From a virus, in the IMG/VR virus record IMGVR_UViG_3300027899_000067, positions 1-25,022 of that record: a stretch of 25,022 nucleotides of DNA; one strand, 5' to 3'. The position numbers and the translations under genes are program-made. Positions 1 to 16,389 of this stretch are shown piece by piece. The notes under the pieces were generated by a model. The model saw nothing but the letters and a program-made list of their open reading frames with translations. It was not told the origin of the DNA and made no database searches. Within the stretch, counting starts at the first letter, position 1. Each line of letters begins with the position of its first letter.

Positions 1-903
1 GCTTCTAATGATTTAGCATCATCAGTTCATGGTGAACGAGATGCAGAGCAAGATGATGAACATGACGCACAAGAATATCATGCTAAACGTGCAGAAAAAC
101 GTATGAGTGGCTTAGAGCGTGCTGGTAATAAACTAGCTAAAGAAGAAGTTGAAGAGTTAGATGAGTTATCAAAAACTACTTTAGGGTCATATCTTCATAA
201 AGCAGTTTCTTCTGCTTACCATCACGCGCAAAAGGTAAACGTTCCTGTTACTCGTAGCGAACGTGAACGAGGAGTAACAGATAATCACAATAAAGCTTAT
301 ACTAAAAGAATGAAAGGCATTGATGCTGCCGGCGAAAAAGTAAAAGATAAAAATATCATTAAATCTGCAATAAAAGGTACTGAACATGCAGCAAAAGCAC
401 AAGAACGGTGGAATTGGGGCCATATAGGTACAGCTAATAGACATGGAAAGGCGGCAGAAATATCAAAACAAAAAACTCATGACACTATTGAGAAAAAAAC
501 TGGTGTAAAACACACAAATGAAGAATTATATCTTGAAGATTACACATTAGAAGAGATTCAAGACTTTATGGTGTCAGAAGACTTTGAACAATTAGATGAG
601 TTATCAAAAACTACTTTAGGTTCTTATGTTAAGAAAGCTGGCCAGCAACGAGTTAACATGGCTAATAAAGAAAAAGAATTAGATGATACAGTAAATGGAC
701 TACAAAGAGCAAAACACAATGTGGATGATGATAGTTATTCTGCATTATCTGCTGCACAAGATAGAGTGAGCAAACAACGTAATGCGGTTACAGATAAAAG
801 TTTATCACGTGCTCAAGGTATCCATACTGCAATCAAAAAACTAACTAAAGAACAAGTTGAAGAGATCGAAGCTCTTGCTGCTAAGCACGGTCTAGGAGAA
901 TAA
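1..903 (+). CDS. Virion-associated hypothetical protein with DELSK repeats (5' partial)
   Basis: The reading frame is open from the first base. The first ATG (103) has no ribosome-binding site, so the gene most likely starts upstream and the visible 300 codons are its C-terminal part. The protein is highly charged, rich in Lys, Glu, Ala and Gln, and probably helical. A module reading ELDELSKTTLGSY then a Lys-rich stretch occurs twice (codons starting near 154 and 589), with 29 identical bases in the two copies. It ends in an acidic helix (EQVEEIEALAAKHGLGE). Placement directly before the prohead protease and scaffold genes suggests a head or core protein. The repeated L-D-E tripeptides fit the L/I-x-E type of site cut by T4-type gp21, so it may be processed during maturation. 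That role is inference; I do not recognise a named family. Confidence 0.75.
   Translation, partial: ASNDLASSVHGERDAEQDDEHDAQEYHAKRAEKRMSGLERAGNKLAKEEVEELDELSKTTLGSYLHKAVSSAYHHAQKVNVPVTRSERERGVTDNHNKAYTKRMKGIDAAGEKVKDKNIIKSAIKGTEHAAKAQERWNWGHIGTANRHGKAAEISKQKTHDTIEKKTGVKHTNEELYLEDYTLEEIQDFMVSEDFEQLDELSKTTLGSYVKKAGQQRVNMANKEKELDDTVNGLQRAKHNVDDDSYSALSAAQDRVSKQRNAVTDKSLSRAQGIHTAIKKLTKEQVEEIEALAAKHGLGE
157..185 (+). repeat. Direct repeat copy 1 (29 bp)
   Basis: These 29 bases are identical to 592-620 and encode the first LDELSKTTLG module of the protein. The flanking codons differ, so the protein motif is longer than the perfect DNA match. Confidence 0.9.
592..620 (+). repeat. Direct repeat copy 2 (29 bp)
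   Basis: Second copy of the 29-bp sequence at 157-185, in the same reading frame and 435 bp downstream. It encodes the second LDELSKTTLG module. Base-level identity points to a fairly recent internal duplication or ongoing conversion. Confidence 0.9.
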
Positions 904-904
904 T

Positions 905-1357
905 ATGGCAACAACAAAAGTAATTCTTAAGAAAACTCATCAAGAAGCAATCGTTAAGGTTGCTGGTACGGCTGCAACAGAAACAATTAGTTTAACTGCT
1001 GATATATTACCAGCAACTCAAGTGTTAGGCGCAACTGGTAGTCAAGCAGTAAATATTGTTGGGGTTACTTGGACTGGTGCTAATAATGGTATTGTTACTA
1101 TTAGTAGAGGTGGTGTTGGTGCTTCTGGTGCAACGGGTGTTGTTATGACACTACAAGCTAATGCATGTGGTCAATTAGATTTTGGCGGTCAACAAATGAT
1201 TCCAGATTCAATCGGCAATACATCTAATATTGAGGTTGCCATTTCAGGTGCACAAGCAGAATGCTGGTTAAAATTACGTAAAGTTGCTGGTTATACAACT
1301 ACAGTTGAGCCAGAACAATTCGGTTCACACGACGATCCTACAGTAGCAGGAAGCTAA
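905..1357 (+). CDS. Hypothetical protein, probable virion component
   Basis: This is a 150-aa protein rich in Gly, Thr, Val and Ala, with a predicted mostly beta character and no membrane segment or signal peptide. It starts one base after the upstream stop, with an AGGAG site at 894-898, and ends one base before the protease gene, so the three genes are translationally linked. Basic N-terminus (TKVILKKTHQEAIVKV), a Gly-rich middle (residues about 55-75) and an acidic tail are visible. Position between a probable core protein and gp21 suggests a structural or head-decoration role, which is inference from context. I recognise the general look of small virion proteins of marine T4-like phages, but no function can be assigned. 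Confidence 0.75.
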   Translation: MATTKVILKKTHQEAIVKVAGTAATETISLTADILPATQVLGATGSQAVNIVGVTWTGANNGIVTISRGGVGASGATGVVMTLQANACGQLDFGGQQMIPDSIGNTSNIEVAISGAQAECWLKLRKVAGYTTTVEPEQFGSHDDPTVAGS

Positions 1358-1358
1358 G

Positions 1359-2009
1359 ATGAAACTAATTAAAGAACACACAGAAGAGGTCAAGCTAATT
1401 GTAGAAGAGAAGCTTGGTAAACCCAAAGAATATTTCATTGAGGGTATATTCCTTCAATCTAATTTAAAAAACCGTAATGGTCGTATGTATTCTAAAGACA
1501 TTATGGATAAAGAAGTCAATAGATATACTGAAGAGTATGTTAACAAGAATCGTGCTTTTGGTGAATTAGGACATCCAGATACCCCATCTATTAATTTAGA
1601 TCGCGTATGTATGATGATTAAGTCACTTAAAGAAGATGGCGATAATTATGTTGGTCGTGCCAAGATTATGGATACTCCATACGGCAAGATCGTTAAGTCT
1701 CTAATTGATGAGGGTGCTCAACTAGGTGTTTCATCTAGAGGTATGGGTTCTCTTATTAGTAAAAATGGAGTGCAAATGGTACAAGATGATTTTACTCTTG
1801 CTACCGCAGCAGATGTAGTTGCAGATCCTTCTGCTCCTGGTGCTTTTGTTCAGGGGATTATGGAGGGTCGTGAATGGATGTTGGTCGATGGAAAATTTGT
1901 GGAGAAAGATTTGAGTGAAGCTCGTGGTATTATCCGTGCAACACCGTCTAGTCGCTTGGAAGAGCAAAAACTTAAGTTATTTATGAATTTTCTACAGAAA
2001 ATTAAGTAA
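1359..2009 (+). CDS. 21: Prohead core protease (gp21-like, peptidase S77)
   Basis: This 216-aa serine protease is the T4 gp21 type, which sits in the prohead core and cuts scaffold, capsid and internal proteins after L/I-x-E sites before DNA packaging. The N-terminal YFIEGIFLQSNLKNRNGRMY block, the GELGHP motif with His72 (candidate catalytic His) and the LGVSSRGMG motif with Ser125/Ser126 (candidate nucleophile) are typical of the family. A conserved DVVADPSAPGAFV block follows at about 152-164. The length matches T4 gp21 closely. The start has an AGG-type site at 1348-1352 and overlaps nothing. Scaffold and capsid genes follow directly, which is the usual gp21-22-23 order. The C-terminus (LEEQKLKLFMNFLQKIK) may be trimmed by self-cleavage, which is inference. 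Confidence 0.92.
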   Translation: MKLIKEHTEEVKLIVEEKLGKPKEYFIEGIFLQSNLKNRNGRMYSKDIMDKEVNRYTEEYVNKNRAFGELGHPDTPSINLDRVCMMIKSLKEDGDNYVGRAKIMDTPYGKIVKSLIDEGAQLGVSSRGMGSLISKNGVQMVQDDFTLATAADVVADPSAPGAFVQGIMEGREWMLVDGKFVEKDLSEARGIIRATPSSRLEEQKLKLFMNFLQKIK

Positions 2010-2010
2010 A

Positions 2011-2018
2011 TATAAATA
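2011..2018 (+). promoter_or_regulatory. T4-type late promoter for gene 22/23
   Basis: An exact TATAAATA box lies just after the gene 21 stop, 38 bp before the gene 22 start. This is the consensus -10 element recognised by gp55-containing RNA polymerase in T4. No TGTACA box is found 17 bp upstream of a TATAAT here, which fits a purely late gene block. Confidence 0.75.
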
Positions 2019-2055
2019 ATAATATAAATTATCTAATTAGATATAGGAGATAAGA

Positions 2056-3075
2056 ATGTCTATCGAACAAAAAATTGCTGAAATGTTAGCCGAATCACGT
2101 GGCAAAACAGCATCAGAAGATTTAAATGAAGAGTATGAAGAGTTAGATGAAGCAGGTAATGGTACTCCAGCACAAGTTGGTGGCCAAGAAGCTTCACATC
2201 TACCGACTGCTACTAAAGAAATGAATCCTGATTCAGATCGTAATAACGTTGATAACGAAGATGAAGTTGCTAAGGGTACTACAAAGAAACCTAATGTAGT
2301 TACTGCTAAAGCTCAAGCTGGTGATCAATCTGTTATTCGTATCGGTGATACAGTTAAAGAAGACGTTGATGCACTAGTTAATGGTGAAGATTTGTCTGAA
2401 GAGTTTAAAGCAAAAGCTGCTACAATTTTTGAAGCTGCTATTGTTGCTAGAGTTAAGCAAGAAGTTGCTAATCTAGAAGAAGAATTCGAAGCTAAGCTTG
2501 AAGAAGCTGCTGCTCAGAATCAAGAGGGTCTTGTTGAAAAAGTTGATGGATATCTCAATTATGTTGTTGAGACGTGGATAGCACAAAATGAAATTGCCCT
2601 TGAACGTGGTATGAAGTCTGAAATCCTTGAGAATTTCGTTTCAGGTCTTAAAGGTGTATTCGAAGAAAATTATATCGATATCCCTGAAGAGAAGTATGAT
2701 GTAGTAGCTGAAATGGAAGAAACAATTGATGAACTTCAAGCTAAATTAAATGAACAATTAGAAGCTAACGTTGAAATGAATAAAATCATTGCAGAACAAG
2801 CTAGAATTGATATCGTTAAAGAAGCATGTAACGGTTTAACCGATACTGAAGTAGAGAAGTTCACTGGTCTTGCAGAAGAATTAGTATTTGAAGATGCTGA
2901 TACCTTTGCTACTAAAGTTCAGACAATTCGTGAAAATTATTTCACAAACAAGGTAGCAAGCAAAATTATCGCTGAGTCTGTTGTTACAGATACTCCAGTA
3001 GAAGTTTTAGCTGAAGAAGTAGTGGTTGCTCCACAAATGAAGCGTTATATGAACGCTCTAAATAACTTAAAATAA
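2056..3075 (+). CDS. 22: Prohead scaffolding core protein (gp22-like)
   Basis: This 339-aa protein is very acidic and rich in Glu, Ala, Val and Lys, with long predicted coiled-coil helices (about residues 105-165 and 210-300), as expected for the T4 gp22 scaffold that fills the prohead and is destroyed by gp21. It is longer than T4 gp22 (about 270 aa) because of a low-complexity acidic N-terminal half. Many L/I-x-E tripeptides provide possible cleavage sites. The C-terminus (APQMKRYMNALNNLK) resembles the end of gp22 proteins that contacts the capsid shell. An AGGAGA site precedes the start, and a TATAAATA late promoter lies upstream. The N-terminus carries EEYEELDEAG, an echo of the ELDEL motif of the first gene in the window. 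The capsid gene follows after 15 bp, so the two are probably co-transcribed. Confidence 0.9.
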   Translation: MSIEQKIAEMLAESRGKTASEDLNEEYEELDEAGNGTPAQVGGQEASHLPTATKEMNPDSDRNNVDNEDEVAKGTTKKPNVVTAKAQAGDQSVIRIGDTVKEDVDALVNGEDLSEEFKAKAATIFEAAIVARVKQEVANLEEEFEAKLEEAAAQNQEGLVEKVDGYLNYVVETWIAQNEIALERGMKSEILENFVSGLKGVFEENYIDIPEEKYDVVAEMEETIDELQAKLNEQLEANVEMNKIIAEQARIDIVKEACNGLTDTEVEKFTGLAEELVFEDADTFATKVQTIRENYFTNKVASKIIAESVVTDTPVEVLAEEVVVAPQMKRYMNALNNLK

Positions 3076-3090
3076 GAAAAAGGAATTACA

Positions 3091-4401
3091 ATGTCAACTC
3101 GTCAAGATTTAGTAAAAAAATGGGCACCGATCCTAGAACATAGTTCTTTGCCTAGCATTAAAGATAACTACCGTAAAGAAGTTACGGCTGTTCTTTTAGA
3201 AAACCAAGAACGCGAAATGGCTAAACAACAAGAAGCTTTGTTCGAAACAGCCCCAACCAACTCAGGCGGTGCAGGTCTTGCTTTAGGTGGTGCTGGTGCT
3301 ATGACTGGCTCTGTAGCTGGTTTCGATCCAGTTCTTATCAGTTTAGTACGTCGTGCTATGCCACAAATGATCGCTTATGACATTTGCGGTGTACAACCAA
3401 TGACACAACCTACTGGTTTGATCTTTGCAATGAAATCAAAATATACTTCACAAGACAGCGCTTCAGAAGCATTGTTCAATGAAGCAGATTCAGATTTCTC
3501 TGGTACAGGTACTCATGAAGGTTCTAACCCAGCATCTGGTACATACACAACTGGTACTGGTTTGACTACTGCTAATGCAGAACGTTTAGGTCAAGGTGGT
3601 TCTGGTGATGGCGAATTCGGTCAAATGGCATTCTCTATCGAGCGTAAATCTGTAACTGCTCAAACTCGTGCTCTTAAAGCTGAATACTCAGTTGAATTAG
3701 CTCAAGACTTGAAAGCAGTTCATGGTCTAGATGCTGAAACAGAATTAAGCAACATCCTTTCAACAGAAATTCTTGCTGAAATCAACCGTGAAGTTATCCG
3801 TACTGTTTATAAAACAGCTAAAGTTGGTGCTCAAGTTGGTACAACAACTGCTGGTACTTTCGACTTAGATGTTGATTCAAATGGTCGTTGGTCTGTTGAA
3901 AAATTCAAAGGTCTATTGTTCCAAATCGAACGTGAAGCCAATGCGATTGCTCAACAAACACGTCGTGGTCGTGGTAACTTCATCCTTTGCTCTTCAGATG
4001 TTGCATCTGCATTAGCAATGGCTGGTGTATTAGATTACGCTCCTGCTTTAAGTACTGGTTTGAATGTTGACGAAGCTTCAACAACATTTGCTGGTGTATT
4101 GAATGGTAAATATAAAGTTTATGTTGATCCATATTCATCTAACCAACAAGCTACTCAGTTCTTCACTGTAGGTTACAAAGGTACTTCAGCATTTGATGCT
4201 GGTTTGTTCTACTGCCCATACGTTCCATTGCAAATGGTTCGTGCTATCGATCCTAACAGTTTCCAACCAAAAATTGGTTTCAAAACTCGTTACGGTATGG
4301 TTGCTAACCCATTCGTTTCATTGGATGGTTCAACTGATGATTTATCAGTAGCAAACAAAAACTACTACTACAGAAAAGTTGCAGTAACGAACTTAATGTA
4401 A
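3091..4401 (+). CDS. 23: Major capsid protein (gp23-like)
   Basis: This 436-aa protein is the T4 gp23 homologue with the HK97 fold, forming the hexamers of the head. The N-terminal part (about residues 1-52) is the probable propeptide; LFE at residues 50-52, followed by TAPTN, is a good gp21 cleavage site. Family blocks visible are FDPVLISLVRRAMPQMIAYD (about 79-98), the ERKSVTAQTRALKAEYSVEL block (about 184-203), RGRGNFILCSSDVASAL (about 293-309) and a GFKTRYGMVANPF C-terminal block. It is shorter than T4 gp23 (521 aa), as is usual in marine T4-like phages, which lack much of the insertion domain. It lies after gene 22 with an AAGGA site and is followed by a strong terminator. Codon choice here is richer in C-ending codons than in neighbouring small genes, consistent with high expression. 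Confidence 0.96.
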   Translation: MSTRQDLVKKWAPILEHSSLPSIKDNYRKEVTAVLLENQEREMAKQQEALFETAPTNSGGAGLALGGAGAMTGSVAGFDPVLISLVRRAMPQMIAYDICGVQPMTQPTGLIFAMKSKYTSQDSASEALFNEADSDFSGTGTHEGSNPASGTYTTGTGLTTANAERLGQGGSGDGEFGQMAFSIERKSVTAQTRALKAEYSVELAQDLKAVHGLDAETELSNILSTEILAEINREVIRTVYKTAKVGAQVGTTTAGTFDLDVDSNGRWSVEKFKGLLFQIEREANAIAQQTRRGRGNFILCSSDVASALAMAGVLDYAPALSTGLNVDEASTTFAGVLNGKYKVYVDPYSSNQQATQFFTVGYKGTSAFDAGLFYCPYVPLQMVRAIDPNSFQPKIGFKTRYGMVANPFVSLDGSTDDLSVANKNYYYRKVAVTNLM

Positions 4402-4431
4402 TATTAGAAGCCTACGTAAGATAGGTACTTT

Positions 4432-4457
4432 AAGGGGATCTTCGGATCCCCTTTTTT
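4432..4457 (+). terminator. Rho-independent terminator after gene 23
   Basis: A 9-bp perfect stem (AAGGGGATC with GATCCCCTT) closes a TTCG tetraloop and is followed by a run of T residues ending at 4457. It separates the capsid gene from the tail tube gene. A near-identical copy occurs at 15236-15260. Confidence 0.95.
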
Positions 4458-4459
4458 AT

Positions 4460-4488
4460 TGTACAAAATACTATAAATATGATATAAT
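4460..4488 (+). promoter_or_regulatory. TGTACA/TATAAT promoter with nested late box (tail tube gene)
   Basis: TGTACA (4460-4465) and TATAAT (4483-4488) are exactly 17 bp apart, as in ten other copies in this window. Uniquely, the spacer also holds a perfect TATAAATA late box at 4472-4479. The tail tube gene 28 bp downstream may therefore be served by two promoter types. Confidence 0.75.
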
Positions 4489-4516
4489 AAATAGTAAAAC
4501 ATTTTTAGGAAATCTT

Positions 4517-5056
4517 ATGGCCACATTAACATGTCCAATGCCGGAAAACATTAATCCATTATCTGCCAATGGGTTTATGTTTAATATTTCGAAACTACCT
4601 GAAGTTAGTTTCTTTTGTCAACAAGTAAACTTACCAAATATTACTTTAGGTGTAGCTGATCAAGCAACACCATTTTCTATGATACCTATTCCTGGTGAGA
4701 TGTTGACTTATGGTACTTTAGATTTGCAATTCTTAATTGATGAAAATATGAATAATTTTAAATCAGTTTATAATTGGATGACTGGTTTAGGTTTCCCAGT
4801 AAATAATAAACAATATAGTGATCTTGTTTCAAGTAGTAATATAAATCAAAGAAATGAATTAATGTCGAATTACTCAGATGCCGTATTACAGATCCTTAAT
4901 AGTAATAATAATTCATCTGAAACTAAAACTATTCAATTTAGAGATATTTTTCCTGTGTCATTAGAAAGTTTAACAATGATGTCAACTAGTACAGACGTAC
5001 AATACTTAGTAGGAAGTGTATCATTTAGGATCAGTTATTACGAATTTATGGCTTAA
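4517..5056 (+). CDS. Tail tube protein-like (gp19 family)
   Basis: This 179-aa protein resembles the tail tube proteins of marine T4-like phages. Visible blocks are a FMFNISKLPEVSFFCQQVNLP stretch (about residues 21-41), a GEMLTYGTLDLQFLIDENM block (about 60-78), NWMTGLGFP (about 86-94), IFPVSLESL (about 144-152) and the final beta strands with VSFRISYYEF. This beta-strand pattern is that of the tube fold shared by T4 gp19 and its relatives. T4 gp19 is 163 aa, so the length fits. It follows a terminator and has its own promoters, with AGGAA at 4507-4511 before the start. It could instead be a tube-initiator type paralogue (gp48/gp54 class), so I leave the symbol empty. The role as a structural tail component is well supported; the exact gene number is less so. 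Confidence 0.7.
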   Translation: MATLTCPMPENINPLSANGFMFNISKLPEVSFFCQQVNLPNITLGVADQATPFSMIPIPGEMLTYGTLDLQFLIDENMNNFKSVYNWMTGLGFPVNNKQYSDLVSSSNINQRNELMSNYSDAVLQILNSNNNSSETKTIQFRDIFPVSLESLTMMSTSTDVQYLVGSVSFRISYYEFMA

Positions 5057-5084
5057 TAAATAGATTATACATTATGGAGTTGTT

Positions 5085-5522
5085 ATGAAAATAGATGAAA
5101 TTCAAGATATGTGGGAGTCAGACTGTGGGATAGATGATAACTATCTCGGTGAGGCTGCCACATTAACACCTAAGTTACATTCAAAATATATCAAGTTACT
5201 TATTGAAGCTAAGTTAAAGCATTCTAAGTATACCTCTGACTATAACCAATTAAGAAAAACTAAATTCAAATACTATCGTGGAGAGATGTCACGTGAGGAA
5301 TTAGCAGATCTACAATGGGATCAATACCAAGGAGTTAAGCCACTCAAGAATGAGATGGATGAAATTCTTACTGGTGATACGGATCTAAATAACATTAATA
5401 CTAGAATCGAATACCTAACTGCAATGATATATCTATTAGAGTCTATCCTTGGTCAGATACGTTCTAGAGACTTTCAAATTAAAAATGGAATCGCTTGGAA
5501 GCAGTTCCTAGCAGGGATGTAA
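5085..5522 (+). CDS. uvsY: UvsY-like recombination mediator
   Basis: At 145 aa this matches T4 UvsY (137 aa) in length, charge and ending: the C-terminal SRDFQIKNGIAWKQFLAGM block aligns well with T4 UvsY's C-terminus. UvsY loads the UvsX recombinase onto gp32-coated single-stranded DNA during recombination-dependent replication. The protein is mostly helical with a basic centre (about residues 42-66, including KYTSDYNQLRKTKFKYYRG). A GGAG site lies 5' of the start. The UvsW gene begins one base into its stop codon (TAATG), the same uvsY-uvsW neighbourhood as in T4. Together, sequence and context make the call solid. Confidence 0.85.
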   Translation: MKIDEIQDMWESDCGIDDNYLGEAATLTPKLHSKYIKLLIEAKLKHSKYTSDYNQLRKTKFKYYRGEMSREELADLQWDQYQGVKPLKNEMDEILTGDTDLNNINTRIEYLTAMIYLLESILGQIRSRDFQIKNGIAWKQFLAGM

Positions 5523-7003
5523 TGAAGATAGTAATAGAAAAACAAGATGAAGTAAATCTAAGAGTGATGGCTGATGACGGCATCGAATACGATCTGTCTC
5601 AGTTCTTTACATTTGAAGTACCAGGTGCTAGATTTACACCTGCTTTCCGTGCCCGCTTGTGGGATGGAAAGATTCGTATGTACGATCTACTTAGAAAAAC
5701 TTTATATGTTGGTCTATTAGATTATCTTATTAAGTTTGCTGAAAGAAATGATCTTGAAATTGAATACAAGAATGAAGTTGTATCAAAGACTCCTGTTACC
5801 TATGAAGAAATAGAAGCATTCACAAAGGGTTTAAATCTCTACGGTAGAGGTAATCCTATTGAGATTCGTGATTATCAGATAGACGCTATCACTCATGGCA
5901 TTTATAACAATCGATCAATATTACTATCTCCTACTGGTTCAGGTAAGTCGTTAATCATCTATTCATTGGTTAGATGGCACCTAGAGAATGGTCGTAAATG
6001 TTTGGTTGTAGTTCCTACTACTTCTCTAGTGGAACAAATGTACTCAGACTTTGAGGATTATTCCTCAGCAAATGGTTGGACTACATCAGAATATTGTCAG
6101 AAACTTTACTCAGGATTTCCTAGAGAAGTTACCAAGGATGTAATGTTTAGTACATGGCAATCTATCTACACTCAACCTAAATCCTGGTTCGATCAGTTTC
6201 AGGTGTTATTTGGTGATGAAGCGCATCAGTTTAAGGCAAAATCATTGACCACAATTATGGATAAAATGAGTGAAACCGGCTTCAGAATCGGCACAACCGG
6301 CTCATTAGATGATAGTAAAATCAATAAATTAGTGCTGGAGGGAGTGTTTGGCCCCACCTATAAGGTTACATCAACCCGCGCACTAATGGATGATAATAAG
6401 CTCGCAGAACTAAAGATTAATGCAATCATCTTAAAATACGATGAATCAACCCGTAAAGAGTTTAATAAATCTACATACCAACAAGAGATGAATTATCTTG
6501 TTACTAATGAGAAGCGCAATAAGTTTATTAGGAATGTTGCTTTAGGATGTGAAGGTAATACGTTATTGTTATTTCAATATGTAGATAAGCATGGTAAGAT
6601 TTTGGATGAAATGATTAGAGCAAAAGTTGCAGAAGGACGTAAGGTCTTCTTTATCCATGGGGGTACAGAAGTTGCAGACCGTGAAGGTATTCGTAAAATC
6701 GTGGAGAAAGAAAATAATGCGATCATCATTGCTAGTTTTGGTGTGTATAGTACTGGTATTAATATACCTTCAATTGAAAACGTTATCTTCGCTTCACCAA
6801 GCAAATCAAAGATTAGAAATCTGCAGTCCATTGGTCGTGGATTACGTTTAAACTCTGGTAAAAAGTATTGCACATTATATGATATAGCTGATGACTTATC
6901 GTATAAATCGTGGAAAAACCACACTTTAAAACATGCTGCTGAACGCTATAAATTATATAGCGAGGAAGAGTTTTCCATTAAATTAGTTGAGGTATCGATG
7001 TGA
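5522..7003 (+). CDS. uvsW: UvsW-like superfamily 2 DNA helicase
   Basis: This 493-aa helicase is the T4 UvsW homologue (503 aa), which unwinds branched DNA and R-loops and helps switch from origin- to recombination-driven replication. An N-terminal UvsW-type domain (about residues 1-100) comes before the RecA-like lobes. Motif I is SPTGSGKS (136-143), motif II is DEAH (232-235), the motif III region is TTGSLDD (about 258-264) and motif VI is QSIGRGLR (435-442). I chose the ATG at 5522 because it overlaps the uvsY stop as TAATG and has an AGG-type site upstream. A longer reading from 5495 would run well inside uvsY and has no better site. The next gene starts at GTG 7000, overlapping the stop. 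Confidence 0.95.
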   Translation: MKIVIEKQDEVNLRVMADDGIEYDLSQFFTFEVPGARFTPAFRARLWDGKIRMYDLLRKTLYVGLLDYLIKFAERNDLEIEYKNEVVSKTPVTYEEIEAFTKGLNLYGRGNPIEIRDYQIDAITHGIYNNRSILLSPTGSGKSLIIYSLVRWHLENGRKCLVVVPTTSLVEQMYSDFEDYSSANGWTTSEYCQKLYSGFPREVTKDVMFSTWQSIYTQPKSWFDQFQVLFGDEAHQFKAKSLTTIMDKMSETGFRIGTTGSLDDSKINKLVLEGVFGPTYKVTSTRALMDDNKLAELKINAIILKYDESTRKEFNKSTYQQEMNYLVTNEKRNKFIRNVALGCEGNTLLLFQYVDKHGKILDEMIRAKVAEGRKVFFIHGGTEVADREGIRKIVEKENNAIIIASFGVYSTGINIPSIENVIFASPSKSKIRNLQSIGRGLRLNSGKKYCTLYDIADDLSYKSWKNHTLKHAAERYKLYSEEEFSIKLVEVSM

Positions 7004-14008: not shown

Positions 14009-14391
14009 GCCCCTTTGATTTTTTAAATGCTATTAATGATACCAAACAGAATATGTTTGATGATCCTCAGGCTGAGAAGGACTATAATGCTTTCTTAATT
14101 AATCGTGGTCTATCTTATTTCCCTGATACGATTATGTATGCAAATGAAATGAATAAGAACAATATGATTGCTAAGAAGATGCAGTTTGATTTTCTTATGA
14201 ATAGTATACCAAAACGTAAGAGATTTAGTAAATGGCACAAGAAAGATGTGTCCACCGATAAGTTATTGCTAATTCAAAACTATTATAAATATAATGAAGC
14301 GAGAGCTCTGGAAATAATGGATCTTTTGACTGATGAAAAAATAATAATAATTGAGAATAAAATGAATAAAGGTGGAAGAAATGACCATTGA
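14005..14391 (+). CDS. 62: Clamp loader small subunit (gp62-like)
   Basis: A 128-aa protein resembling the short gp62 of marine T4-like phages, the single small subunit of the gp44/62 clamp loader. The diagnostic N-terminal block is FDFLNAINDTKQNMFDD, followed by YNAFLINRGLSYFPDTIMYANEMN and the SIPKRKRFSKWHKK block (about residues 67-80). T4 gp62 is longer (187 aa); the short form is normal outside the coliphage group. It has no ATPase motif, as expected. Its start overlaps the membrane protein gene (ATGA) and its end overlaps the RegA gene by 11 bases. Context (44, 62, RegA) confirms the call. Confidence 0.9.
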   Translation: MSPFDFLNAINDTKQNMFDDPQAEKDYNAFLINRGLSYFPDTIMYANEMNKNNMIAKKMQFDFLMNSIPKRKRFSKWHKKDVSTDKLLLIQNYYKYNEARALEIMDLLTDEKIIIIENKMNKGGRNDH

Positions 14392-14806
14392 ACAAATTTA
14401 CTACGACTGGAAGCCAGAGTCCATGTTGGAGATTATACTGCCTGAGCCCGATAACTTTCTAAAAGTTAGGGAGACTTTGACACGTATTGGTATCGCGTCG
14501 CGTAAAGACAATAAACTATATCAGTCTTGCCATATATTACATAAGCAAGGTAGATATTTTATAGTACATTTCAAAGAACTCTTTGCTCTTGATGGTAAAG
14601 AAAGCAACATTACTGCATCAGATATTGAACGTAGAAATGCTATTGCTTTATTACTTCAGGACTGGGATCTATTGAAATTGGTGAACAAGTTAAGTACTGA
14701 TACTGCTTCAATCTTGTCACAAATAAAAGTTGTTTCTTATAAAGAGAAACACGAATGGGAATTAGTACCGAAATATAACATCGGTCAAAAACGTAAGCCG
14801 CAATAA
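14381..14806 (+). CDS. regA: RegA-like translational repressor
   Basis: This 141-aa protein is the RegA homologue (T4 RegA is 122 aa), an RNA-binding protein that blocks translation starts of many early mRNAs, including clamp loader and clamp genes. The family core is visible: LPEPDNFLKVRETLTRIGIASRKD, then LYQSCHILHKQGRYFIVHFKELF, then RRNAIALLLQDWDLL, and a C-terminal HEWELVPKYNIGQ. An N-terminal extension of about 15 residues is present relative to T4. I chose ATG 14381 because AAAGGTGG (14368-14375) stands at good spacing; a GTG at 14372 would add three residues. Genes 45, 44 and 62 just upstream are classic RegA targets. Confidence 0.92.
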   Translation: MTIEQIYYDWKPESMLEIILPEPDNFLKVRETLTRIGIASRKDNKLYQSCHILHKQGRYFIVHFKELFALDGKESNITASDIERRNAIALLLQDWDLLKLVNKLSTDTASILSQIKVVSYKEKHEWELVPKYNIGQKRKPQ

Positions 14807-14831: not shown

Positions 14832-15011
14832 ATGGATATTAATTTAACACTGAAAGTGGAAGAAGTAAACGTAATTTTAGCATCATTAGGTAAACATCCT
14901 TTTGACCAAATCGCAAACTTAGTGCAAAAAATCAAAGCACAAGGTGAACCACAGGTAATTGCACAAACACCAACTGAAGAAGGTACAGCAGATTCAATTG
15001 CCGTTGAATAA
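14832..15011 (+). CDS. Small hypothetical protein (59 aa)
   Basis: A 59-aa protein preceded by a clear AGGAGAG site (14821-14827). It begins with a strand-helix unit (INLTLKVEEVNVILASLGKHPFDQIANLVQKIKAQ) and ends in an acidic, probably unstructured tail. Short proteins of this layout, with EEVNxIL and a KIxxQ helix, occur often in T4-like phages, but I know of no assigned function. It follows regA after 25 bp and may be co-transcribed with it. A TATAAT at 14810-14815 could be a -10 element, but no TGTACA box is spaced correctly. The gap after it (15012-15121) holds no gene I can support. Confidence 0.75.
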   Translation: MDINLTLKVEEVNVILASLGKHPFDQIANLVQKIKAQGEPQVIAQTPTEEGTADSIAVE

Positions 15012-15121
15012 TCCCTGGATTACTACTTTTTAATACTTTTAACTATATGAAAATATAGGCATCTTGTATAAGTAGTTATGTAAGACAAAATTATTAATGT
15101 AATTAACCTAGGAGATTTACC

Positions 15122-15193
15122 ATGTGGACAACACCAGCAGCTACAGAAATGCGTTTTGGCTTTGAAGTTACAATGTACGTAATGAACAAGTAA
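15122..15193 (+). CDS. pqqA: PqqA-like PQQ precursor peptide
   Basis: This 23-residue peptide has the length and pattern of bacterial PqqA, the ribosomal precursor of pyrroloquinoline quinone (PQQ). It begins MWTTPAATEMRFG, and the core FEVTMY (14-19) holds Glu15 and Tyr19, the two residues that the radical-SAM enzyme PqqE crosslinks (with PqqD as chaperone) to build PQQ. The Trp2, Pro5, Arg11 and Gly13 positions are also family-like, and it ends NK where many bacterial versions end NR or similar. A strong AGGAGA site (15110-15115) sits 7 bases before the ATG, and a terminator follows 42 bp after the stop. No pqqBCDE genes are visible, so the host would have to supply the maturation enzymes. 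PQQ serves methanol and other dehydrogenases. Use by the phage to raise host PQQ supply is inference. Confidence 0.9.
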   Translation: MWTTPAATEMRFGFEVTMYVMNK

Positions 15194-15235
15194 TTCTAAA
15201 AAATTACATCCCTAGCGGTTTCGACTTCTAGGCGC

Positions 15236-15260
15236 AAAGGGGATCTTCGGGTCCCCTTTT
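15236..15260 (+). terminator. Rho-independent terminator after pqqA
   Basis: AAAGGGGATC and GGTCCCCTTTT form a 10-bp stem (one G-T pair) around a TTCG loop, ending in TTTT. It differs at one base of 24 from the terminator at 4432-4457. A shorter hairpin, CCTAG/CTAGG (15211-15232), stands between pqqA and this terminator. Confidence 0.92.
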
Positions 15261-15273
15261 GCTTGCCCGCTTG

Positions 15274-15393: not shown

Positions 15394-15813
15394 ATGAAAA
15401 TTGCAGTATTAGCATTATTAGTGTCACTGTCGGCCCACGCTGAACCACCAAAAGAAATGTATATGGCAAATGACGCCGGTGGGTTTGTTGTATTAACGAT
15501 TGAACTATGTACACATAAAAATGTGGCTAAAGAATATCCATATAGAGCTTATGCAACAGAAGGTTCTGATGTTGTTATGCATGAGGGATGTTGGAGTACT
15601 CCAGATACTTCTGCAGTGCCAACTGAATTAATGGTAAAAGAAGAAGGGGCTGGACCTGCTCCTACTTTACGAGTTATCAAAATGGTAAATACTTGGTGGG
15701 TAGAAGGTGGTAAGGCTACATTCTTTCAATCTGCATTTTTACCACAAAAGAAAAGATACCTTAGTAATGGTACAATTGACACCACGTTAAAACCGATTAT
15801 AGTTAAACCATAA
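15394..15813 (+). CDS. Secreted/periplasmic hypothetical protein
   Basis: A 139-aa protein with a clear Sec-type signal peptide: MKIAVLALLVSLSAHA, with likely cleavage after the Ala at residue 16 (A-H-A then EPP). The mature part has two cysteines (Cys39 and Cys66) that could form one disulfide, in the contexts IELCTHKN and HEGCWSTP, and a WWVEGG motif near residues 96-101. It is predicted to be mostly beta. Export to the periplasm is well supported; function is unknown. A GGGAG site precedes the ATG. It sits behind a late promoter and a structured leader, so late expression is likely; roles in superinfection exclusion, lysis or envelope change are possible but only guesses. Its stop abuts the tmRNA promoter. 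Confidence 0.75.
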   Translation: MKIAVLALLVSLSAHAEPPKEMYMANDAGGFVVLTIELCTHKNVAKEYPYRAYATEGSDVVMHEGCWSTPDTSAVPTELMVKEEGAGPAPTLRVIKMVNTWWVEGGKATFFQSAFLPQKKRYLSNGTIDTTLKPIIVKP

Positions 15814-15842
15814 TGTACATTAATTCTTTATTGGTGTATAAT
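15814..15842 (+). promoter_or_regulatory. TGTACA-17-TATAAT promoter for the tmRNA
   Basis: TGTACATTAATTC at 15814 and TATAAT at 15837-15842, spacer 17 bp. The expected start near 15849 lies about 30 bases before the first tmRNA helix strand, fitting the 5' end of the acceptor piece. Confidence 0.85.
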
Positions 15843-15848
15843 AGTATT

Positions 15849-16250
15849 TAGATTGTTGTAGAAGCTCTAAAGTAATACATGTTGGACGGCGGTTCGATTC
15901 CGCCCATCTCCACCAAAAGCATATTGTCACTAAGGTCCCGTAAGGATTATGTCTTTAGCGCGATAGTATGCTTTTGATGGAGATGACAAGGTTCTGACAT
16001 CTCATCAGAAGTACTCCGGTCGGTGTGGGAGGGACACACAGATGGACAACACTAGGACACCGTTCGAATCGGAACTAGAGTACTTCTAATGGGGATGACC
16101 AGGTTTCGACAGCGTGGGATAGGATAAGAGTCAACACGTGGGATCACGTTAAATACAAAAAGATATAACTGCAAACGATGAGTTATTCGCATTAGCTGCT
16201 TAATGTAGCTTAGGGTTCGGTAGGTTCCTCGTAACAGAATACCTACCACT
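15849..16250 (+). ncRNA. ssrA: Circularly permuted two-piece tmRNA
   Basis: The acceptor piece comes first: T-arm stem GGCGG/CCGCC (15888-15904) with loop TTCGATT, then CATCTCC (15905-15911) and ACCA. The coding piece comes second: GGGGATG (16091-16097) pairs with CATCTCC to form the acceptor stem (one G-U), and CAGCGTG (16110-16116) pairs with CATGTTG (15878-15884) to form helix P2 (two G-U). A hairpin ACGTG/CACGT (16136-16149) lies where PK1 is expected. The tag frame is GCA at 16171 to TAA at 16203, encoding ANDELFALAA, close to known tmRNA tags. The piece ends in a GGTAGGT/ACCTACC hairpin (16219-16247). The order acceptor-spacer-coding is that of the permuted tmRNAs known from alphaproteobacteria, some cyanobacteria and some betaproteobacteria. 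tmRNA rescues stalled ribosomes with SmpB. End positions are approximate. Confidence 0.93.
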
Positions 16251-16269
16251 TTCTATAAAGGAGTAACAT

Positions 16270-16389
16270 ATGTTAGGAACTTTATTTTGGGTATTAGTTG
16301 GTGCATTTATTGGTTGGCATGTTGAGCAACCTGCATGGGCAAAAACATTGAAGCAAAAAGTTTTAGGACTTTTTCATAAAATTTGGTAA
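16270..16389 (+). CDS. 39-aa single-pass membrane protein
   Basis: This 39-residue protein has a strong AAAGGAG site (16257-16263) and begins with a hydrophobic helix (LGTLFWVLVGAFIGW, residues 2-16), followed by a basic amphipathic helix (WAKTLKQKVLGLFHKIW). This layout, with a G-W at the membrane edge and a QPAWA turn, is typical of small phage membrane proteins of unknown role. It directly follows the tmRNA coding piece with no terminator between them, so it could be carried on the tmRNA precursor transcript. Possible roles include a holin-like or membrane-associated accessory peptide; none can be proven from sequence. Confidence 0.72.
   Translation: MLGTLFWVLVGAFIGWHVEQPAWAKTLKQKVLGLFHKIW

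Follow-up and report, generated by a model that had tools for sequence, protein, structure and literature searches.

A short pqqA gene in a T4-like phage and its occurrence among phages of methylotrophic bacteria

PqqA precursors are very short, approximately 22–29 residues. As a substrate, PqqA is stoichiometric: each PQQ made uses up one peptide, while PqqB–E are catalysts. In lakes and coastal seas, the Methylophilales play an important part in the consumption of methanol. In cyanophages, psbA is a host-derived metabolic gene whose product, a protein subunit, is supplied during infection. PqqA was described together with methanol dehydrogenase and peptide deformylase in the T4-like Lake Baikal virus VP_266, for which a Methylophilaceae host was predicted and the function considered here was proposed (Coutinho et al., 2020; PMC7678222). 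Moreover, pqqA, pqqD and pqqE were listed among viral genes in 2026 (PMC13188868). Phage PqqA is already known from VP_266, and hence the gene described here is not the first but adds another case. It was located in the window, i.e., the whole analysed stretch of 25,022 nucleotides from the IMG/VR record IMGVR_UViG_3300027899_000067. The pqqA gene and its surroundings were as follows.

14372..14806, plus strand: RegA translation repressor (phrog_242, E 1.5e-59), which marks the pqqA slot in the window phage and several relatives
14832..15011, plus strand: 59-residue open reading frame between regA and pqqA, no family match
15067..15074, plus strand: possible T4-type late promoter TATAAGTA, also found upstream of pqqA in the relative L085
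15110..15114, plus strand: ribosome-binding site AGGAG, 7 nt before the ATG of pqqA
15122..15193, plus strand: pqqA, 23 residues, MWTTPAATEMRFGFEVTMYVMNK, with Glu15 and Tyr19, passing both PqqA models
15211..15262, plus strand: two hairpins 3' of the pqqA stop, the second (15234–15262) terminator-like, with a cUUCGg loop and a short U tract

The 72-base frame was translated into 23 residues and a stop, which fits the size range of PqqA. The peptide scored 40.3 bits with the Pfam model PF08042 (cutoff 21.1; E 3e-10) and 38.8 bits with the NCBIfam equivalog TIGR02107 (cutoff 20; E 5.6e-10), approximately twice the curated cutoff in each case. Glu15 and Tyr19 form the E-x-x-x-Y crosslink motif, which we take to be the pair joined by PqqE. 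A six-frame search of the entire 25 kb record gave this single PqqA match, and the same search gave zero matches in 14 control genomes. Judged by these scores, the frame is a genuine pqqA, far beyond chance. The sequence-only reading had described a 23-residue PqqA frame with Glu15, Tyr19 and a strong ribosome-binding site, and the translation, the AGGAG motif and the two curated profiles bore this out. The UUCG hairpin that it had placed downstream was present, though with a short U run. The 72 nt 3' of the stop (15194–15265) folded at −25.7 kcal/mol (z −3.9), and none of 200 shuffles was as stable. Terminator-like hairpins followed 47 of 117 phage pqqA copies, compared with 5 of 360 random places. 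The TATAAGTA-type late-promoter sites had no enrichment over shuffled sequence, and the motif is a candidate late promoter and a weak lead only.

The window record is a T4-like phage. The PHROGs matches included the major head protein, sliding clamp, both clamp-loader subunits, RegA, DNA polymerase, an SbcC-like nuclease subunit and Hsp20, and the T4-like set among them (head protein, DNA polymerase, sliding clamp, clamp loader and RegA) was matched by phrog_138, 262, 223, 168, 225 and 242. On the side away from RegA and the 59-residue frame, pqqA was flanked by an open reading frame at 15394, the start of which resembled a signal peptide. The phage context claimed from the letters alone thus agreed with these matches. 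pqqA is a host-type metabolic gene embedded among T4-like phage genes and identical in DNA to the host gene, and is in this sense a candidate auxiliary metabolic gene. A permuted (two-piece) tmRNA gene of the betaproteobacterial type with the tag ANDELFALAA was located just upstream of hsp20 (15823–16294, plus strand). It was conserved in the T4-like relatives L085, L558–L560 and L562–L566, and in several relatives a second partial copy scored nearby. Two further features were observed: in a phage relative, a match to the ROSE_3 heat-shock RNA thermometer above the gathering score (L074:4506–4572, plus strand), and, in a relative of the window phage, many densely packed tRNA genes close to hsp20 and pqqA (L567:227–4625, plus strand).

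The host was explored by scanning the genomes of 84,980 species with a DNA pattern based on the signature EMRFGFEVTMY. At least 120 loci were matched; among the titles listed, most were Methylophilales, and the remainder were unclassified betaproteobacterial or uncultured bins. Among the matches listed, 56 of 131 host copies encoded exactly the window peptide, the most frequent PqqA of the Methylophilales. The DNA from Trp2 to Lys23 was identical to pqqA in the Methylotenera loci L151, L206 and L138, and near-identity (97.7%) to Methylotenera pqqA loci was confined to the block 15110–15195. In L151 and L206, the identical pqqA lay directly upstream of frames that read as pqqB and then pqqC. 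From the identity of peptide and DNA to Methylotenera pqqA, with which the betaproteobacterial tmRNA agrees, we infer that the host is a Methylophilales bacterium, probably a Methylotenera-like one. A methylotrophic host had been anticipated, and the comparison with Methylophilales PqqA supports it. The 21 Methylophilales genomes tested (G045–G065) held 2–12 scattered pqqA copies each: 12 in Methylotenera mobilis 13, up to 12 in LSUCC0135 and 3 in streamlined OM43 strains. This multiplicity suggests that precursor dosage matters. A methanol-grown PQQ producer is reported to have five pqqA copies with differing expression (PMC9851590).

Within the clade of the window phage, pqqA is variable and not fixed. 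The gene was near regA in 14 of the best 80 RegA relatives, always a few hundred bases 3' of regA, and many of the relatives without a nearby pqqA may infect other hosts. L566 carried pqqA in the same slot as the window, and L567 and L568 carried it elsewhere; L558, the Hsp20 of which was 90% identical to that of the window, had no pqqA in its 36.5 kb record. The similarity between the window and its nearest relative, L085, stopped within the final codons of pqqA, suggesting that the gene itself has been a site of exchange.

Cultured phages were searched by tblastn with the window PqqA against 50,697 phage records. The search gave 12 matches, and a second, different PqqA query gave the same 12. 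Nine were records of cultured methylophages (P19250A, Venkman, MEP301, MEP401, MEP402 and four Melnitz), and all nine of the cultured methylophage records found carried one pqqA; this count leaves out MEP431–434, Venkman EXVC038S, HIM624-A, phiMB624-A, MG-MtP1 and RSA-MfP1. The PqqA peptide of P19250A was identical to that of the window. An uncultured podovirus from Manatee Spring was the only true phage match beyond the methylophages among the 50,697 records. The other two matches belonged to Acinetobacter phage MD-2021a, the longer record of which (CAKLQF020000010.1, L128) was rejected as phage and assigned to a host chromosome because bacterial ppk and pqqBCDE adjoined pqqA. pqqA was unannotated in every phage record examined, as expected for a frame said to escape gene finders, and in Melnitz and the Manatee Spring podovirus a different frame was annotated on the opposite strand at this place. 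No mention of pqqA was made in the open-access publications describing Melnitz, MEP401/402 and Venkman.

Virus contigs in IMG/VR were scanned with degenerate DNA patterns. The first pattern (W-P-G-EVT-Y) gave at least 120 loci, with a short PqqA frame in 120 of the 120 listed and a ribosome-binding site in all 119 copies that had enough upstream sequence. Two narrower patterns gave 191 further loci, all of them ATG-started frames of the right length, and the three scans together gave at least 311 loci, all with short ATG-started PqqA frames. One narrower scan was complete at 84 matches, and its codon combination accounted for 5 of 120 loci in the first sample. The number of IMG/VR contigs with pqqA was estimated from these two values at approximately 2,000, with a wide range of roughly 900 to 6,000 because the count of five is small, on the assumption that the first 120 loci listed are representative. 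When 127 phage loci were grouped by shared genes, one large group formed around P19250A, Venkman and MEP301; the others were a group of 17, the T4-like group of the window with 15, four small groups and 22 singletons, including Melnitz and MEP402. Elsewhere, the neighbours of phage pqqA were terminases, head proteins, tail tube, baseplate hub, helicase and DNA polymerase. For this breadth (all cultured methylophage records checked, several unrelated lineages and about 2,000 contigs), no earlier report was found in the open-access literature, and one elsewhere is possible. Separately, L229 (CAIYXB010000030.1), binned as a bacterial genome, had up to 11 genes in common with P19250A-like phage loci and probably belongs to a phage. 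A different type of phage PqqA was observed in L004, L014, L019, L025, L026, L029, L080, L084 and L117, which suggests phages of other PQQ makers.

The genes that travel with pqqA were explored in 50 longer phage records. Exactly one pqqA was present in 46 and none in 4, and PqqE over the cutoff was found in 0 of the 50. As a rule, the phage carries only the precursor gene and leaves the enzymes to its host. Methanol dehydrogenase was rejected as a regular partner, as it occurred in 1 of the 50 records. A 72 kb record of the gene-sharing group of the window (IMGVR_UViG_3300025120_009955; G013, with loci L046, L329, L342 and L343) carried pqqA, a PQQ methanol dehydrogenase (624 residues) and, directly after it, a formate dehydrogenase alpha subunit (946 residues), and would thus hold most of the energy route from methanol to CO2. 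It also carried DnaK, GroEL, DNA ligase and a CHASE2/adenylate-cyclase-like frame.

The conservation of the crosslink pair was evaluated with a pattern that leaves both residues free, as the first pattern fixes Glu15 and Tyr19 and its matches are no test of either. Glu and Tyr were kept in 255 of 255 distinct phage copies matching the free pattern, many from loci first fetched by the fixed pattern and 21 from the free pattern only; the pair on which the sequence-only reading had relied is conserved in related phages. The pN/pS ratio was 0.27 (bootstrap 5–95%, 0.15–0.39) in the columns outside those fixed by the first pattern. The values within phage groups were 0.27 (copies located in the regA slot) and 0.21 (P19250A-like copies). 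The coding sequence of phage pqqA is under purifying selection, part of which may date from time in hosts, because phage and host copies intermix. As 66-nt genes are too weak for a tree, a nearest-neighbour test was used instead, with L229 excluded from the host set. A host copy was the nearest neighbour of a phage copy at a fraction of 0.17, compared with 0.34 under shuffled labels; phage copies were nearer each other.

The best explanation, which we hold with good confidence, is that a host-derived pqqA cassette lets the T4-like methylophage supply PQQ precursor to the PqqB–E of the host and thereby sustains methanol dehydrogenase. The phage would have acquired the gene from a Methylophilales host, and ribosome-binding site, gene and hairpin would together form a small self-contained cassette. 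Extra copies of pqqA, or copies still expressed after host gene shutoff, would feed precursor; PqqE and PqqD of the host would join Glu15 to Tyr19, and PqqB and PqqC would complete PQQ. The PQQ-dependent methanol dehydrogenase, and hence the supply of energy and C1 units, would be kept running during infection. We infer that phage pqqA is transcribed, translated and processed, with an effect on PQQ and methanol oxidation. A supply of precursor to host PqqB–E had been proposed in the sequence-only reading and would agree with all the results above. A precursor alone makes sense because of the stoichiometry given above, one peptide per PQQ with catalytic enzymes. The precursor is not always the bottleneck, because in Acetobacter the overexpression of pqqAB raised PQQ by only 29%, whereas that of pqqABCDE raised it eightfold (PMC7936290).

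A variant of this explanation is a real possibility, at somewhat below an even chance: phage pqqA would replace rather than boost, offsetting the precursor lost to the shutoff of host transcription, so that PQQ would stay at or below the level of the uninfected cell, in a manner that may be likened to that of photosynthesis genes in cyanophages. The DNA identity of the window copy to host copies is consistent with such a role, and the presence of one pqqA per phage record, compared with 2–12 in hosts, points to a stand-in more than to amplification. However, as is generally known, phage genomes attain a high copy number in the infected cell, and a single gene can therefore still mean more peptide.

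It is quite unlikely that the peptide acts as a decoy, which would occupy PqqE and PqqD or be processed without yielding PQQ and would damp the methanol oxidation of the host or serve, e.g., as a modified signalling peptide. Phage pqqA does come without PqqB–E, and the fate of the peptide is wholly dependent on the enzymes of the host, but its sequence equals that of working host PqqA, with the crosslink pair kept and no drift at the sites that a decoy could lose. A functionless host fragment that recombines in and out would fit the variable presence in the clade and the end of similarity to L085 inside the gene; this is highly improbable in view of the purifying selection within phage groups, the ribosome-binding site before all those copies of the first scan that could be tested, the occurrence in all cultured methylophage records found and several unrelated lineages, and the closeness of phage copies to each other (0.17 compared with 0.34). 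A misassigned bacterial contig or a chance frame is practically out of the question: one database match was of this kind, the Acinetobacter 'phage' record with ppk and pqqBCDE beside pqqA, but for the window it is refuted by the T4-like genes on both sides, and cultured phage genomes carry pqqA, the neighbours elsewhere are terminases and head and tail proteins, and the profile match has an E-value of 3e-10.

Returning to the supply of precursor by the phage, it appears rather likely that pqqA is a near-constant gene of Methylophilales phages, present as one copy in each of several unrelated lineages and overlooked at 72 bp, and that these phages control a redox cofactor through its consumed peptide alone, relying on the host for the enzymes. 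If Methylophilales phages routinely supply PQQ precursor, infection would have a direct link to methanol oxidation. As gene finders easily drop a gene of 72 bp, pqqA would for the most part escape surveys of viral metabolic genes. The whole metabolic contribution would be a 23-residue peptide, which could be measured or swapped in existing phage–host pairs (Venkman or Melnitz with OM43 strain H5P1, and P19250A with its LD28 host). Moreover, the presence of pqqA is a simple marker by which phages can be assigned to methylotrophic hosts.

The window pqqA was finally compared with the known systems. Compared by description, VP_266 is alike in having PqqA in a T4-like virus, a predicted Methylophilaceae host, AT-rich DNA (35% GC compared with 36% in the window) and the same proposed role; it differs in also carrying methanol dehydrogenase and peptide deformylase, neither of which was present in the 25 kb window. 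The bacterial PqqA of Methylophilales (PF08042, TIGR02107) shares the identical peptide and, in L151, L206 and L138, the identical DNA from Trp2 to Lys23, whereas the window gene lies in a phage and without pqqBCDE. The cultured methylophages P19250A, Venkman, MEP301, MEP401/402 and Melnitz have the same short frame with a ribosome-binding site, but they belong to other lineages, with other neighbour genes and pqqA unannotated. Cyanophage psbA and similar host-derived metabolic genes resemble pqqA in that a host component is topped up during infection by a gene that is near-identical to that of the host and exchanged with hosts. The difference is that psbA encodes a protein subunit, whereas pqqA encodes a 23-residue peptide substrate, which is consumed.
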